From the NCBI GenBank assembly GCA_007134025.1, contig SLLR01000001.1:1-51844 (forward strand): a stretch of DNA of 51,844 nt, given 5' to 3'. Position 1 is the stretch's first letter. Each line of letters opens with the position of its first letter. Origin of the DNA: Desulfuromonadaceae bacterium. Lineage in GTDB: Bacteria > Desulfobacterota > Desulfuromonadia > Desulfuromonadales > Syntrophotaleaceae. A program made the position numbers and the translations under genes. This document shows, in pieces, positions 8,893 through 49,052 of the stretch. The notes below the pieces were generated by a model that saw only the letters and a list, made by a program, of their open reading frames with translations, did no database searches and was not told the origin of the DNA.

Positions 8893-9660
8893 ATGGACTA
8901 TGAGATCGCCCTTGACAGTTTTAAAGGTCCGCTGGATCTGCTGTTGCATCTTATCCGCCATCATGAGATGGATATTTACGATATTCCGATCGCGGAGATT
9001 ACGGCCCAGTATCTGGCAGCCCTGGATGCCATGAAGAGTCTCAACCTTGATCTCGCCGGTGAATTTCTGCTGATGGCGGCAACACTTCTTCAGATCAAAT
9101 CGCGCATGTTGCTGCCCCGTGATGCCGATCAGGCCGAAGATGCCGAGGAGCCCGACCCCCGGGCGGAACTGGTCAACCGGCTTCTGGAATATCAGAAATA
9201 TCGTGAGGCGGCCCGCTGCCTGGAATCCCTCCCTCTTCTCGGCCGGGATGTTTTCATCCGGGAAACAACGGAGGCGGAGGAAGGCCAATCGCAGCTTGAA
9301 TCGCCGGAGTGGGAGCCCATAGGACTTTTCGAACTGGTTGCGGCATTTCAACAGTTGCTGAGCGGTGGGCAAGAGGAACCGATTCACGAAATCACTCGGG
9401 AACGTTTGTCCGTCACCAACCGCATTTACCAGATTCTCGAGGCACTGAGCAATAATCCTTGTCTTGCTTTCAACGAGCTTCTGGCGGGTGTGGTCAGCAG
9501 GAGTCATATTGTCGTGACCTTTCTGGCAATGCTGGAACTGGTCAAGATGCGCTTGGCCCGGCTGATGCAGCACAACCCCGATCACGCCATCTGGCTCTAC
9601 GCCGTAGACGGGAGCAGCACTGTTTCCGCCGCACAGGAAGAAACTTTTGGTTACAGCTGA
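8893..9660 (+). CDS. scpA: Segregation and condensation protein A
   Basis: 255-residue kleisin that bridges SMC heads and, with ScpB, forms the condensin-like complex needed for chromosome compaction and segregation. The N-terminal signature FKGPLDLLLHLIRHHEMDIY and the following LAGEFLLMAATLLQIKSRML are diagnostic; the middle is acidic and variable; the C-terminus carries the winged-helix region that contacts SMC. ATG 8893 begins the family-typical MDYEIALDSF; an alternative TTG at 8869 would overlap the preceding gene. The ribosome binding site is weak. The end overlaps scpB. Confidence 0.95.
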   Translation: MDYEIALDSFKGPLDLLLHLIRHHEMDIYDIPIAEITAQYLAALDAMKSLNLDLAGEFLLMAATLLQIKSRMLLPRDADQAEDAEEPDPRAELVNRLLEYQKYREAARCLESLPLLGRDVFIRETTEAEEGQSQLESPEWEPIGLFELVAAFQQLLSGGQEEPIHEITRERLSVTNRIYQILEALSNNPCLAFNELLAGVVSRSHIVVTFLAMLELVKMRLARLMQHNPDHAIWLYAVDGSSTVSAAQEETFGYS

Positions 9661-10222
9661 GCTAAAGTGTATTGTCGAGAGCCTGCTTCTGGTCGCGGAC
9701 CAACCCGTCAAGGCGGATTGTGTTGCCCTGATCCTGGGCATCGACGAGTCCCGGGCGGCATCCTGTCTGGAGCAATTGTACGACGATTATGCGACCTGCG
9801 GTCGTGGTTTTGTGGTGTGCCGGGTCGATGGCGGCTATCAATTTCGAACCCGTCCTGAACATGCCGAATGGGTTCGGCGTTTTCGCAAGAGCCGACCGTT
9901 CCGGTTTTCCCGGGCGGCCTTGGAAACATTGGCCGTTGTGGCTTACCGACAACCGGTTACCCGCGCCGAAATTGACTGTCTGCGGGGTGTCGATTCCGCC
10001 GGAGTCATCCGTACGTTGCTGGACAGGCGTTTGATTCGTATCCTTGGTAAAAAAGACGCACCGGGAAAACCGGTAATTTATGGAACCAGCCGTGAGTTCC
10101 TTGCTTTGTTCGGTCTTGCCGATTTGACCGGACTGCCGACCCTCAAAGAGTTTAATGAGTTGCCTCCGGAAATGCTCTCTGAACTGGAGTCCGGATCGCA
10201 GGAACAGATCGCTTTGCGATGA
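9647..10222 (+). CDS. scpB: Segregation and condensation protein B
   Basis: 191 residues, two winged-helix domains; dimerises and binds ScpA in the SMC complex. Recognisable parts: an N-terminal ESLLLVADQPV segment, FRFSRAALETLAVVAYRQPV-TRAEID in the middle, and GKPVIYGTSREFLALFGLADL near the end, with a short tail. No ATG exists near the N-terminus; the TTG at 9647 has AGGAAG about six bases upstream and gives a 14-nt overlap with scpA, so it is the likely start and implies coupling. In many relatives rluB follows directly. Here a copy of the 150-bp repeat (10251-10400) lies between them. Confidence 0.94.
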   Translation: MVTAELKCIVESLLLVADQPVKADCVALILGIDESRAASCLEQLYDDYATCGRGFVVCRVDGGYQFRTRPEHAEWVRRFRKSRPFRFSRAALETLAVVAYRQPVTRAEIDCLRGVDSAGVIRTLLDRRLIRILGKKDAPGKPVIYGTSREFLALFGLADLTGLPTLKEFNELPPEMLSELESGSQEQIALR

Positions 10223-10250
10223 TGGTTTTTTTGTCATAGCATGAAAATAT

Positions 10251-10400
10251 TGGGCGGCGCAAAAAGTCCGCCCTATGGCGTTTCGGCATTTTTTCAGGAT
10301 CTCGACATACCCTATGGTATGTCTTCACCACTGAAAAAACACCAAGCCTTATAGGACGAAATTTTTGGTTAGCCATCTTATAAGTATTTGCGAAAGCATC
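10251..10400 (+). repeat. Palindromic dispersed repeat, copy 1
   Basis: First of three copies of the same element in this window. It reads GGCGGCGCAAAAAGTCCGCC at the left and GGACGAAATTTTTGGTTAGC then TTGCGAAAGCATC at the right. The two halves are imperfect inverted repeats of each other, including GTTTTTTC/GAAAAAAC-like arms and an inner CATACC...GGTATG hairpin. No open reading frame is seen. It lies between scpB and rluB. Flanks contain TATTGGGCGGC (left) and TATTGGCGGGC (right), a possible but imperfect duplication. Confidence 0.8.
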
Positions 10401-10429
10401 AATTATTGGCGGGCTGCCGGATATAATGA

Positions 10430-11140
10430 ATGAAACAGCGCTTACAGAAACTGATCGCAGCTGCGGGACTCGCTTCACGCCGACAGGCCGAAGACTGGAT
10501 CAATGCAGGGCGTGTGACTTTGAACGGTCGAGTCGCCAGCCTCGGAGATCGTGCCGATCTTGAGAAAGACTGCGTTCAGGTGGATGGACGCTCCCTGGAA
10601 GCAGGGCAGCCTCGAGTCTACCTGCTCCTCAATAAGCCGGTGGGATACGTCACAACCGCTCGGGATCCTCAGGGTCGCAGTCTGGTGACGGATCTGGTGA
10701 GGGACGTTCCGGTGCGGTTGTTTTCGGTGGGGCGACTTGACCTGAACACGGATGGCTTGCTGTTGCTGACTAATGACGGAGCCTTGGCCGCCCGGCTTAC
10801 TCATCCTCGGCACCGTGTTGCGAAAACCTATCTGGTGCGGGTGCGGGGAGCTTTGAGCAGCGAGGCCCGGCAACGCCTGGAGGGCGGGGTTGAACTGGAA
10901 GACGGTCCCACTGCGCCGGCACGCATATCCAGGGTCCGGTTGGCCGGAAGCCATACCTGGTTCGAATTAACCCTTTACGAAGGACGCAACCGACAGGTTC
11001 GGCGTATGTGCGAGGTGGTGGGACTTCCTGTCAGCCGGCTCAAAAGAATCGGTCTGGCCTCTCTTAATCTGGAAGGGGTGCGGGTCGGGCACTACCGCCA
11101 TTTGACCGCTGGTGAGGTGGCACGGCTTAAAAGGCTTTAG
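10430..11140 (+). CDS. rluB: Large-subunit rRNA pseudouridine synthase, RsuA/RluB family
   Basis: 236 residues. N-terminal S4 RNA-binding domain (about 1-60, RLQKLIAAAGLASRRQAEDW), then the pseudouridine synthase fold with the catalytic Asp in GRLDLNTDGLLL (Asp near 104), KTY near 134 and the conserved EGRNRQVRRM segment near the C-terminus. RluB converts U2605 of 23S rRNA in E. coli; relatives RluE, RluF and RsuA share the fold, and the choice of RluB rests mainly on the scpA-scpB neighbourhood. The ATG at 10430 has only a weak upstream site and lies 29 nt after repeat copy 1, so the repeat may supply part of its leader. Confidence 0.9.
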   Translation: MKQRLQKLIAAAGLASRRQAEDWINAGRVTLNGRVASLGDRADLEKDCVQVDGRSLEAGQPRVYLLLNKPVGYVTTARDPQGRSLVTDLVRDVPVRLFSVGRLDLNTDGLLLLTNDGALAARLTHPRHRVAKTYLVRVRGALSSEARQRLEGGVELEDGPTAPARISRVRLAGSHTWFELTLYEGRNRQVRRMCEVVGLPVSRLKRIGLASLNLEGVRVGHYRHLTAGEVARLKRL

Positions 11141-11281: not shown

Positions 11282-13408
11282 GTGAACGCATTGTTAAAAA
11301 AGGAAAAACTTCTAGCTTCCGCGCAGAAGAATCTTCTCAAGGGACAGATCGTTAAAGCCATCAAGGACTACGAAAAGATTGTTGAAGCTGACGCCAGGGA
11401 TGTACGCAACCGGCAGAAACTGGCCGAGCTTTACAGTCGCAATCACCAGTCCGAGCAGGCTTTGGCGACCTACGACCTGGTCGCTCGGCATTACAGCGAC
11501 AACGGCTTTCTTCTTAAGTCTCTGGCTGTCTACAAGCAGATGCAGAAAGTGGATCCAGAGCGGCCGGATGTCTACCATCGTCTTGCCGAGTTGAATGTGA
11601 AGCAAGGGCTAAAAGGCAACGCTCTGACAGAACTTCGAAATCTGGTTGCCCTGTACCGCAAGCTTGGCGAACCGGAAGAGGCCGTCAAGGTGCTGGATCA
11701 GATGAAAGTTATTGATCCGCACAATTTTGGCATCGCCCTGTTGGTAGCGGAAGCTTTCAGGGATTCGGGAGAGCCGGAAAAAGCCTCCGTTTGTCTTGGC
11801 GATTGCCTTCGTTATCTTGCTCCCAAAGGTGATTTGAAAGCAGTTGAAAAGGTTCGCCAGGCAGGGCTTGACTGTTGTCCCGATTCCATGTCGTTTCAAC
11901 TGGAAGTGGTTCGCGCCCTTCACGTCTGTGGCGAGACCGCTTCCGCAATGGAGATACTTCAGGAAATTCTGGCAAAGCAACCGCAGAACGCTGAGGCGCT
12001 TTTGCTGTTAGCCGAAGGCTGTCGTCTTATTGCCGATCACCTAGCTGAAACTGTCGCGTATGAAAAGCTGCTTGACATCGATGCGGATCAAATGGATTGG
12101 CGCAAAGGCTACGCCGAGGCCTTGCTCCTGAGTGGCGCTGCGGATCAGGCACTTGAGCAACTTGAAAAGGTCAGGGACACTTTCTTCGCCGCCGGCCGTG
12201 CGGCTGATTTGAAGGAAATTTACGAGTCGGTACAGGAGCTTCTGCCCGACAGTGAAACGGTGGTAACTTCTTTGCAGGCTGTTTATGAAAACACCGGTGA
12301 GGGGGGCAAGCTTTTTGATCTCATGTCCTCCTCGTCGGATGATGCGGACGATGCAAGAGCCGCTGCAGTGGAGAGGGCCCAATCCGCTCAAGAGGTGCCC
12401 TCCGGCGAACTGGATCTTGAAGGCGATTTGACGCAGGATCCGGCCCAACGCCGAGGCCCCTCTGACGAATCGAAGGATGAGGACGCGACTGCCGCCGATT
12501 CGGAATCTGTCGAGGAGCCGTTCCAGCAGAGCATTGAGTTCGATGATCTGGACCTTGACGGTATCGAGTTCGGACTGCAGGACGAAGTTGAATCCGTACG
12601 GCAAGCAACGCAAGGATCCCCTGCCGTCCCCGACGGTGCGGCTTTGGCGCCTGTCGATGTAGCCGCGGAGATTGAGGAAGCGGGATTTTACTATCAACAG
12701 GGTCTGTTGAGCGAAGCCATCCAAAAATGCCAATCTCTGCTTGAACGGGCAGGGGACTGCCCCGAGGCCGAGGCATTGCTTGAAAAATTGGGCGAAGCCG
12801 GCAGGGTTTCCGAACCCTCCGGCCACAAAAAAAAGCCCGCAGGTGTCTCCAGTGGTTCCTCAACGAGCCAGCCTTCCAGGGGGCTTGAAGATCGGGATCG
12901 TTCCCGCCTGGACGGTTCTTTCAGTGAGTTCAAAAAAGGCCTCGAGAGCCAGGTTTCCGCAGAGGATACCGAAACCCATTATAATCTTGGCATTGCTTAT
13001 AAGGAAATGGGCCTTCTGGACGATGCCATTGAGCAGTTCGACAAGGTAGTGAACGATCCGCAGCGCCGCACCGATTGTCTGACCCTCAAGGGAGTCTGTC
13101 TGGTTCAGAAGGGAGCTTTTGAAGAAGCTGTGACAACCTTCAAGGAAGGACTAGGTAGCGGCGACCTCAAAGACTGTGAACGCATCAGCCTTTATTACGA
13201 ACTGGGTCTGTTGTATATGGCCTGGAATCAACCTCTGGAAGCTCTCGACTGTTTTCAGTGCGTAGCCGATGCGGACCCTTTCTTTCGCAACGTCGATGAG
13301 CAGATTCGCACGTTGCGCAAAGAACTGGGGCTTGACGATGACGATGAAAATGACGAGTCACCCGGTGGAGGCAGCGGTTCCGACAACAATCGAGTTTCCT
13401 ATATTTGA
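11282..13408 (+). CDS. Large tetratricopeptide repeat protein with acidic central linker
   Basis: 708 residues without signal peptide or membrane segment. The first about 340 residues are serial TPR helices (for example AIKDYEKIVEADARDVRNRQ, then YEKLLDIDADQMDWRKGYAE), followed by a low-complexity acidic linker rich in Asp, Glu, Ser and Ala (about 345-460), another TPR unit, a basic/Ser-rich linker, and two or three C-terminal TPRs (HYNLGIAYKEMGLLDDAIEQ). The tail is DDDDEN then Gly/Ser. It starts at a GTG with a poor ribosome binding site. TPR proteins scaffold complexes; the ATPase gene after repeat copy 2 suggests a shared envelope-assembly or secretion role, but this is inference. The TGA stop coincides with the left edge of repeat copy 2. 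Confidence 0.85.
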   Translation: MNALLKKEKLLASAQKNLLKGQIVKAIKDYEKIVEADARDVRNRQKLAELYSRNHQSEQALATYDLVARHYSDNGFLLKSLAVYKQMQKVDPERPDVYHRLAELNVKQGLKGNALTELRNLVALYRKLGEPEEAVKVLDQMKVIDPHNFGIALLVAEAFRDSGEPEKASVCLGDCLRYLAPKGDLKAVEKVRQAGLDCCPDSMSFQLEVVRALHVCGETASAMEILQEILAKQPQNAEALLLLAEGCRLIADHLAETVAYEKLLDIDADQMDWRKGYAEALLLSGAADQALEQLEKVRDTFFAAGRAADLKEIYESVQELLPDSETVVTSLQAVYENTGEGGKLFDLMSSSSDDADDARAAAVERAQSAQEVPSGELDLEGDLTQDPAQRRGPSDESKDEDATAADSESVEEPFQQSIEFDDLDLDGIEFGLQDEVESVRQATQGSPAVPDGAALAPVDVAAEIEEAGFYYQQGLLSEAIQKCQSLLERAGDCPEAEALLEKLGEAGRVSEPSGHKKKPAGVSSGSSTSQPSRGLEDRDRSRLDGSFSEFKKGLESQVSAEDTETHYNLGIAYKEMGLLDDAIEQFDKVVNDPQRRTDCLTLKGVCLVQKGAFEEAVTTFKEGLGSGDLKDCERISLYYELGLLYMAWNQPLEALDCFQCVADADPFFRNVDEQIRTLRKELGLDDDDENDESPGGGSGSDNNRVSYI

Positions 13409-13556
13409 TGGCGGCGCAAAAAGTCCGCCCTACGGCGTTACGGCGTTTTTTCAGGATCTCGACATTACCCTGTGTATGTCTTCGCCCCCGAAAAAACACC
13501 AAGCCTTGTAGGACGAAATTTTTGCTTAGCCATCTATGGGGTTTTGCGAAAGCATT
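13405..13556 (+). repeat. Palindromic dispersed repeat, copy 2
   Basis: Second copy, same orientation as the others and the best preserved. Outer arms GATGGC (13407-13412) and GCCATC pair exactly; inside are GCAAAAA/TTTTTGC, CCTAC-GGC against GGC-TTGTAGG, GTTTTTTC/GAAAAAAC, and a central GACAT/ATGTC hairpin, so the whole element can form a long imperfect cruciform. The right tail TTTTGCGAAAGCAT is shared with the other copies. It begins at the stop codon of the TPR gene and fills most of the 241-nt gap before the AAA ATPase gene. Confidence 0.82.
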
Positions 13557-47662: not shown

Positions 47663-47690
47663 TTGACAATGCGGCCGGGCTCCCTATAAT
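47663..47690 (+). promoter_or_regulatory. Consensus sigma70 promoter upstream of bioB
   Basis: TTGACA (47663-47668), 16-bp spacer, TATAAT (47685-47690): both hexamers are perfect, with a GC-rich spacer. The nearest rightward gene is bioB at 48066, so the leader would be about 370 nt and would contain repeat copy 3. Confidence 0.62.
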
Positions 47691-47768
47691 CGGTGATTCC
47701 TGAAAAAGATCTGCGAAAGGTTGTGGGCCGCTCAAAAAGGCAGAGTGGCATCGCAAAAAATCTTTTCA

Positions 47769-47781
47769 CAAGCTCTGGTGG
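47769..47781 (+). repeat. Direct repeat, left flank of repeat copy 3
   Basis: CAAGCTCTGGTGG, identical over 13 bases to 47925-47937. The two bracket exactly 143 bp of the repeat element, as a target-site duplication would. Confidence 0.7.
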
Positions 47782-47926
47782 CGTCGCAAAAAGTCCCTCC
47801 TGCGGCGTTACGGTGTTTTTTCAGGGCCTCGACATACCAGATGTATGCCTTCGTCCCCGAAAAAACACTAAGCCATGTAGGACGAAATTTTTCTTAGCCA
47901 TCTCATGAGTTTTTGCGAAAGCGTCA
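47774..47926 (+). repeat. Palindromic dispersed repeat, copy 3
   Basis: Third copy, same orientation as copies 1 and 2. It keeps TCGCAAAAAGTCC at the left, the GTTTTTTC/GAAAAAAC inner arms, TAGGACGAAATTTTTCTTAGC and TTTTTGCGAAAGCGT at the right. Between the direct repeats the element spans 47782-47924 (143 bp), with TCGCAAAAA / TTTTTGCG-type inverted ends. No coding capacity. It interrupts the leader between a consensus promoter and bioB. Confidence 0.82.
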
Positions 47927-47999
47927 AGCTCTGGTGGTTTTTCGAGATCTGGACAGGGACCGACACAGGCCCTGGCCTCTGAATAACCACCAGACCTTG
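47925..47999 (+). other. Inverted repeat in the bioB leader; right direct repeat of copy 3
   Basis: CAAGCTCTGGTGGTT (47925-47939) pairs with AACCACCAGACCTTG (from 47985) with one mismatch; an inner CAGGG/CCCTG stem (47954-47958 and 47970-47974) is nested in it. Its left arm is also the 13-bp direct repeat flanking copy 3. No T run follows, so it is not a standard terminator; it may be a structured leader of bioB. Confidence 0.5.
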
Positions 48000-48065: not shown

Positions 48066-49052
48066 ATGCAGGAAGTGATAAGGGACTGGACCCGGCGGGT
48101 GTTGTCGGGAGCAGAACTCTCGGCAGACGAGGCCCAGGCCTTGCTCAAAATTGAAGGGGCCGACCTGGGCGATCTTTTCGCCGGGGCGCAGCGGATACGC
48201 TACCATTACAAAGGCGACCGGGTGGCCCTCTGCTCCATTATCAATGCCAAATCGGGACGCTGTTCGGAGGACTGTGCCTTTTGCGCCCAGTCAGCGCATC
48301 ACCAGGCTCAGGGCCCCGTCTACCCCCTCAAGTCGATCGAAGAAATCGTCGCCGGCGCCCGGCAGGCCGAAGCGTCGGGTTGCAGTTGCTACGGAATCGT
48401 CAGCAGCGGCTCCCGGCCCGCTGCGGGGGCCGAAATGGGCCGCCTCCTGGAAGCGATCCGGCAGATTCGCGCAACCACCGGGATTCGGCCTTCTGCGTCT
48501 CTGGGCCTGCTCGATCGAAGGGCGGCAGAAGCTCTCGCTGCCGCCGGATGCGCCGTCTATCACCATAACCTGGAGACGGCCCGGTCTTTTTTCCCTCAAA
48601 TTTGCACCACCCGCGATTATCAGCAGGATGTGGAGACCATTCAGTGGGCTAAACAGAGCGGCATGAGGGTCTGCTGCGGTGGGTTGTTCGGGCTTGGCGA
48701 GAGTCTTGAGCAGCGGGTCGAGCTAGGGCTGACCTTGCGTGAGCTGGCTGTCGATTCGGTGCCCATCAATTTTCTGGCACCGGTGGAGGGGACCCCTCTG
48801 GCCGGTAGAAATCCGCTGCCGCCCATGGACTGCCTGCGCATCATCGCTCTGTTCCGTTTTCTGCTGCCCAGGGCCCGGATCAGCGTCTGCGGAGGACGGG
48901 AGCAAAACCTTGGAGAATTCCAGTCGTGGATATTTCTGGCCGGAGCCAGCGGACTGATGGTCGGCAACTACCTGACCCTCAAGGGCCGGGATCTGCAGGC
49001 GGATCTGAAAATGATCCGTGACGCCGGGTTGAGTCATGCTGCCTGTCAGTGA
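48066..49052 (+). CDS. bioB: Biotin synthase
   Basis: 328-residue radical SAM enzyme that inserts sulfur into dethiobiotin. The SAM cluster motif C-x3-C-x2-C is CSEDCAFC; later CSCYGIVSSGSRP, HNLETARSFFPQI, CCGGLFGLGES and RISVCGGREQNLGEFQ carry the 2Fe-2S ligands and substrate residues. ATG 48066 has AAGGAG at ideal spacing. It overlaps bioD by 17 nt, so the two are coupled; no bioF or bioC lies in the window. Confidence 0.97.
   Translation: MQEVIRDWTRRVLSGAELSADEAQALLKIEGADLGDLFAGAQRIRYHYKGDRVALCSIINAKSGRCSEDCAFCAQSAHHQAQGPVYPLKSIEEIVAGARQAEASGCSCYGIVSSGSRPAAGAEMGRLLEAIRQIRATTGIRPSASLGLLDRRAAEALAAAGCAVYHHNLETARSFFPQICTTRDYQQDVETIQWAKQSGMRVCCGGLFGLGESLEQRVELGLTLRELAVDSVPINFLAPVEGTPLAGRNPLPPMDCLRIIALFRFLLPRARISVCGGREQNLGEFQSWIFLAGASGLMVGNYLTLKGRDLQADLKMIRDAGLSHAACQ

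Follow-up and report, generated by a model that had tools for sequence, protein, structure and literature searches.

A family of gene-less inverted-repeat elements of about 150 bp in Desulfuromonadales, with stop-codon-restoring insertion and a replication-linked orientation in several genomes

The window, a 51,844-bp stretch of contig SLLR01000001.1 from a Desulfuromonadaceae bacterium, carries three copies of a short palindromic repeat in intergenic or gene-end positions. A sequence-only reading had placed three copies here, and all of them are present, with borders lying within 1–3 bp of those it gave. The features of these loci are as follows:

10246–10251, no strand: left flank of copy 1, AATATT, an inexact and probable worn target duplication
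10252–10400, plus strand: element copy 1 (149 bp), between scpB (9647–10222) and a pseudouridine synthase gene (10430–11140), both neighbours assigned by Pfam
13407–13556, plus strand: element copy 2 (150 bp), abutting a TPR-repeat gene (11282–13408)
47663–47690: perfect (12/12) sigma-70-like promoter, preceding both copy 3 and bioB
47770–47776, no strand: left target-site duplication of copy 3, AAGCTCT, exact
47777–47925, plus strand: element copy 3 (149 bp), within the leader of bioB (48066–49052)
47777–47792, plus strand: left terminal inverted repeat of copy 3, reading GGTGGCGTCGCAAAAA (consensus GATGNNNTCGCAAAAA)
47910–47925, minus strand: right terminal inverted repeat of copy 3, reading GACGCTTTCGCAAAAA on the minus strand
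47926–47932, no strand: right target-site duplication of copy 3, AAGCTCT, exact

The three window copies share 82–89% pairwise identity over about 148 bp (blastn, E 1e-36 to 1e-49), and their centres differ mainly at the loop tip and in the sequence just inside the right end. No gene lies inside them, and no Rfam model matched the element at its gathering score in the window. Copy 1 is worn at its left terminus, which reads GGGC in place of GATG, and its right flank, AATTATT (10401–10407), differs by one base from the left flank. Copy 2 has no target duplication left; the T at 13406, together with the first two bases of the element (GA), forms the TGA stop codon (13406–13408) of the TPR-repeat gene. 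Between the sigma-70-like promoter and copy 3/bioB, at about 47747–47763, lies GGCATCGCAAAAAATC, a possible relic of the end of another element.

We gathered 233 distinct copies from the window's own genome, its relatives and named GTDB contigs, 192 of them with both ends. The element reads GATG...CATC from end to end, with a terminal inverted repeat of consensus GATGNNNTCGCAAAAA at both ends: the left end is GATGGCGTCGCAAAAA, and the right end, read on the other strand, is GATGNNNTCGCAAAAA. The modal length of the two-ended copies is 150 bp, below the 500-bp limit for MITEs. An exact direct repeat touches the ends in 98 of these 192 copies (6 bp in 76 and 7 bp in 22), compared with an expectation of 1.9 when flanks are shuffled between copies. 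Wherever the first border base was not A, the left and right bases agreed in 11 of 13 copies or better; since the outermost bases co-vary on both sides, they are part of the duplication and not of the element. Duplications of 8–13 bp and an alternative TG...CA terminus were ruled out by this border-base test. The pre-insertion target has the consensus Y-Y-[A W N N T T]-R-A, corresponding to the near palindrome TYAWNNWTRA.

Relatives carry clean empty sites, contradicting the view that copies occur solely in conserved homologous context. For copy 1, an alignment of the joined flanks showed the site to be unoccupied in G001, a genome of the same genus. A stop-codon site of the complete genome G004, flanked by the duplication AACTTT, is empty in both G010 and G006, which keep a single target copy and an intact TGA. 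In G035, two pairs of adjacent elements each have a single 6-bp target/duplication between them. Together, the duplications and the empty sites point to transposition rather than conserved homologous context: the element inserts as a precise unit and duplicates a 6-bp (sometimes 7-bp) target.

The prediction that the genome would hold many further copies was borne out, with 19 matches in the window's own genome (G000; 2,249,776 bases in 149 contigs), of which 15 are nearly full-length and one spans about 80 bp (about 16 near-full copies in all, plus fragments). An internally deleted 50-bp derivative with the same ends lies at C112:1921–1970. Across the class, the element was found in 88 of 277 genomes with a patchy distribution, 85 of them in the window's own order Desulfuromonadales and three represented by marginal hits; genomes sampled from other parts of the phylum include diverged full forms with 72–80% identity. 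Most of the named carriers belong to the Desulfuromonadales (Desulfuromonas, Pelobacter, Desulfuromusa, Geopsychrobacter), with some among the Desulfobulbaceae and Desulfurivibrionaceae. Plasmid and phage collections gave no match and viral contigs a single exact match, to the left end, so the element is essentially chromosomal. Copies in bins labelled as other phyla (L142, L148, L160 and L227, all from Chloroflexi C2.bin.19; L145 from Bacteroidales AUK297) are most likely misbinned contigs.

Several variants accompany the main form. L089, L092 (G004) and L260 (G048) represent a sister subfamily that shares the ends and the central GTAC tip but differs in stem sequence, and to it also belong 155-bp end pairs at positions 2344808 and 2348890 of G050. 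Head-to-tail tandem copies with units of about 144–152 bp occur in G004 (L088:1257500–1264800 and L098), one tandem dimer being flanked by a AAGTTTTGA repeat. At L101:1101–1440 (G035:C4:104100–104439), the element is split by an apparent second MITE with the ends GTAACTATTCAGCT...AGCTGAACAGTTAC. Contigs C14, C19 and C43 of G028 start inside the element, and in G042 a partial and a full copy are scaffolded through N at C1:69000–69243, 834648–834892 and 1083299–1083542 (L382–L384), which indicates that the hairpin breaks short-read assemblies. The resulting 244-bp composite, present three times in G042, resembles co-transposition and was rejected as a scaffolding artefact on account of the N at the joint.

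The target TYAWNNWTRA contains TRA, that is TGA or TAA, on each strand. Using gene calls from a simple longest-ORF caller, we counted junctions for open frames of at least 80 codons upstream of an element end. The left junction splits a native stop codon after its first T (T|GA or T|AA) in 23 of the 100 duplication-bearing copies and the equivalent right junction in five, while any other single offset from the stop codon accounts for at most three; control positions nearby gave nine hits on the left and nine on the right of 3840, an expectation of 0.23%. Among all 243 copies, 67 left and 14 right stop-codon junctions were recorded. With T-R-A at the end of the target and GA at the start of the element, the split stop is rebuilt as TGA and the protein is unchanged; about a quarter of copies are placed in this manner. 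The enrichment can be accounted for by purifying selection that removes other insertions into genes, but such selection by itself does not explain the asymmetry between left and right, as both ends start with GATG.

All three window copies point the same way, as had been remarked from the letters, and this direction proved to be part of a wider pattern. With GC skew taken as a proxy for replication direction, copies follow the local skew in 15 of 16 cases in the window's own genome, 39 of 44 in G004 and 11 of 13 in G050, compared with 106 of 164 in a mixed set of other genomes; G035 shows no bias (8 of 23), so the bias is not universal. In G004, whose skew switches sign at around 0.6 and 2.3 Mb, 39–40 of the 44 copies follow it; 59% of the sampled coding sequence of this genome is on the leading strand, against which the element bias has p 1.8e-5, and after tandem arrays are collapsed the orientation gives p = 9e-5. 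Gene-neutral neighbourhoods of G004 have 10 of 11 copies following the skew, and opposed neighbourhoods 4 of 6. Duplication-bearing copies alone follow it in 7 of 7 (G000), 5 of 5 (G004), 4 of 5 (G050) and 50 of 79 (mixed others). In a regression on all 260 copies, skew and gene direction both contribute; local gene direction does not fully explain the bias. As skew is only a proxy, we regard replication-linked orientation as well supported in three genomes, and not as a universal property of the family.

The proposal that the left and right halves are imperfect reverse complements and likely to fold also holds: copy 1, aligned with its own reverse complement, agrees at 71% across 110 bp, and folding as RNA gives z-scores of −2.6 to −4.9 for the plus strand and −3.7 to −7.2 for the minus strand. 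Fifty copies below 86% identity, distant ones included, share a common long hairpin with conserved internal loops. In the minus-strand hairpin, both pair partners have changed in 104 cells, whereas shuffling gave 36 on average and 48 at most; this arm covariation may reflect either selection acting on the folded DNA or RNA or arm-to-arm repair. One copy, L210, has its central hairpin tip inverted relative to all others, which suggests arm-to-arm recombination or template switching.

Judged from sequence, an A-tract/stem/U-tract layout is present on both strands, as in a two-way terminator, and a terminator role is a hypothesis. A rival reading would hold that a once-mobile element is now selected as a portable 3′-end hairpin (a terminator or mRNA stability element), so that position and orientation reflect retention and not insertion. 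The enrichment of copies directly at gene 3′ ends, the two-strand layout and the covariation are consistent with this; however, a consensus terminator scan flagged neither copy 1 nor copy 2, copy 3 has a perfect promoter on one side and bioB on the other, the orientation bias remains beside opposed or divergent genes and in duplication-bearing copies, and template switching between the arms can also yield covariation. We consider retention of this kind an unlikely source of the pattern.

The remark that the repeat comes with no transposase agrees with our searches, none of which turned up a transposase gene between two facing ends. An autonomous partner carrying the element ends emerged neither from the distances between ends across 1.06 Mb of loci nor from the spacing of all end positions in G050, an essentially complete genome with young copies. 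None of the 26 DDE_Tnp_1 loci in five carrier genomes had element ends, and none of the 30 Y1-transposase (PF01797) loci in seven carrier genomes had an element copy within 1.5 kb; the search by transposase family covered these two. A facing pair of ends 2.3 kb apart in G035 (L100) turned out to be two ordinary copies flanking a uvrC-like gene.

With high confidence, we regard the element as a gene-less MITE family of about 150 bp with GATGNNNTCGCAAAAA inverted repeats, a near-palindromic target and stop-rebuilding insertion. It is most likely an unnamed family moved in trans by a cut-and-join transposase. The duplications point to staggered joining of the DDE type; judging by them only, a staggered-cut (DDE) transposase would act in trans on the element ends, probably encoded by an element since lost or one whose ends have diverged. 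Orientation could be set by the asymmetry of the two ends or by coupling to the replication fork, and the strong hairpin may be kept because it is used as a structure in DNA or RNA, or through arm-to-arm repair.

A more specific mechanism, which we think improbable, is that a duplication-making transposase acts on a strand-specific substrate, joining at the fork in one orientation, perhaps with a folded single strand, and that the ends have evolved to restore stops. Strand preference is otherwise typical of IS200/IS605, integrons or Tn7/TnsE. If this were true, strand-specific duplication-making joining would amount to a safe-site strategy that combines DDE-type joining with a strand preference.

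It is similarly doubtful that the element is an already described repeat, namely Chunjie of Geobacter uraniireducens or an unnamed multicopy family of Pelobacter/Geobacter genomes. The Chunjie MITE, reported from G. uraniireducens Rf4 (Chen et al. 2008, as covered in the review PMC10969869), comes from the same class of bacteria and is likewise gene-less and able to fold, with inverted ends, direct repeats and many intergenic copies; multicopy families are also listed for P. carbinolicus (PMC3543383). Chunjie measures 178–235 bp, against about 150 bp for the element, a separation by description and not by sequence, and the review passages on it mention no stop-codon or replication-strand property. 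Within the class, moreover, the family detectable here is confined to its own order apart from the three marginal hits.

Other short repeats resemble the element in part. SPRITE, RUP and BOX of Streptococcus pneumoniae (PMC3049150) are also short, folding and MITE-like, and SPRITE shares a terminator-like character and a position near gene 3′ ends; however, their orientation mirrors coding bias only (about 61% leading strand, against 84–94% for the element in three genomes), SPRITE has no demonstrated duplication, and the ends and hosts of all three differ. YPAL/RU-2 of Yersinia (review PMC2229807) is a 168-bp palindromic mobile repeat with target duplications, but these span 3–26 bp and its inverted repeats are internal, whereas those of the element are terminal and its duplications 6–7 bp.

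An IS200/IS605-type single-strand element (PATE-like), with hairpin ends and strand-biased insertion beside a short fixed target such as TTGAT, would accommodate the replication-strand bias, the long hairpin and the T-rich target directly left of the element. The target-site duplications, the inverted-repeat ends of equal rank and the lack of linkage between element copies and any of the 30 Y1 loci argue against it, and we hold it to be very unlikely. A REP/BIME-type repeat moved by a RAYT (Y1 HUH) transposase is largely refuted and deserves almost no credence: the element is palindromic, intergenic and present in high copy number, as such repeats are, and each of the seven carrier genomes tested has PF01797 genes, but it shows no linkage to their 30 PF01797 loci, is much longer than REP and has true, exact target duplications unexpected from RAYT chemistry. 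The initial assignment to a "MITE or REP/BIME type" thus stands in its first half, on the conserved ends, 6–7 bp duplications, empty sites and high, patchy copy number, and is not supported in its second.

Overall, the general kind of element, a MITE, is known, and we could not match this family to a named one, Chunjie having been compared by description only; it appeared neither in Rfam (window search) nor in the literature found. Two of its properties are unusual: insertion that restores stop codons, and an orientation tied to replication in several genomes. These results describe a widespread repeat family of sediment Desulfuromonadales whose split-and-rebuild rule offers a parasite a route into dense bacterial genes without harm, and which gives many genes ready-made 3′-end hairpins. 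Because its orientation is biased, sequence data from many genomes would be enough to test whether duplication-forming transposition is linked to replication.
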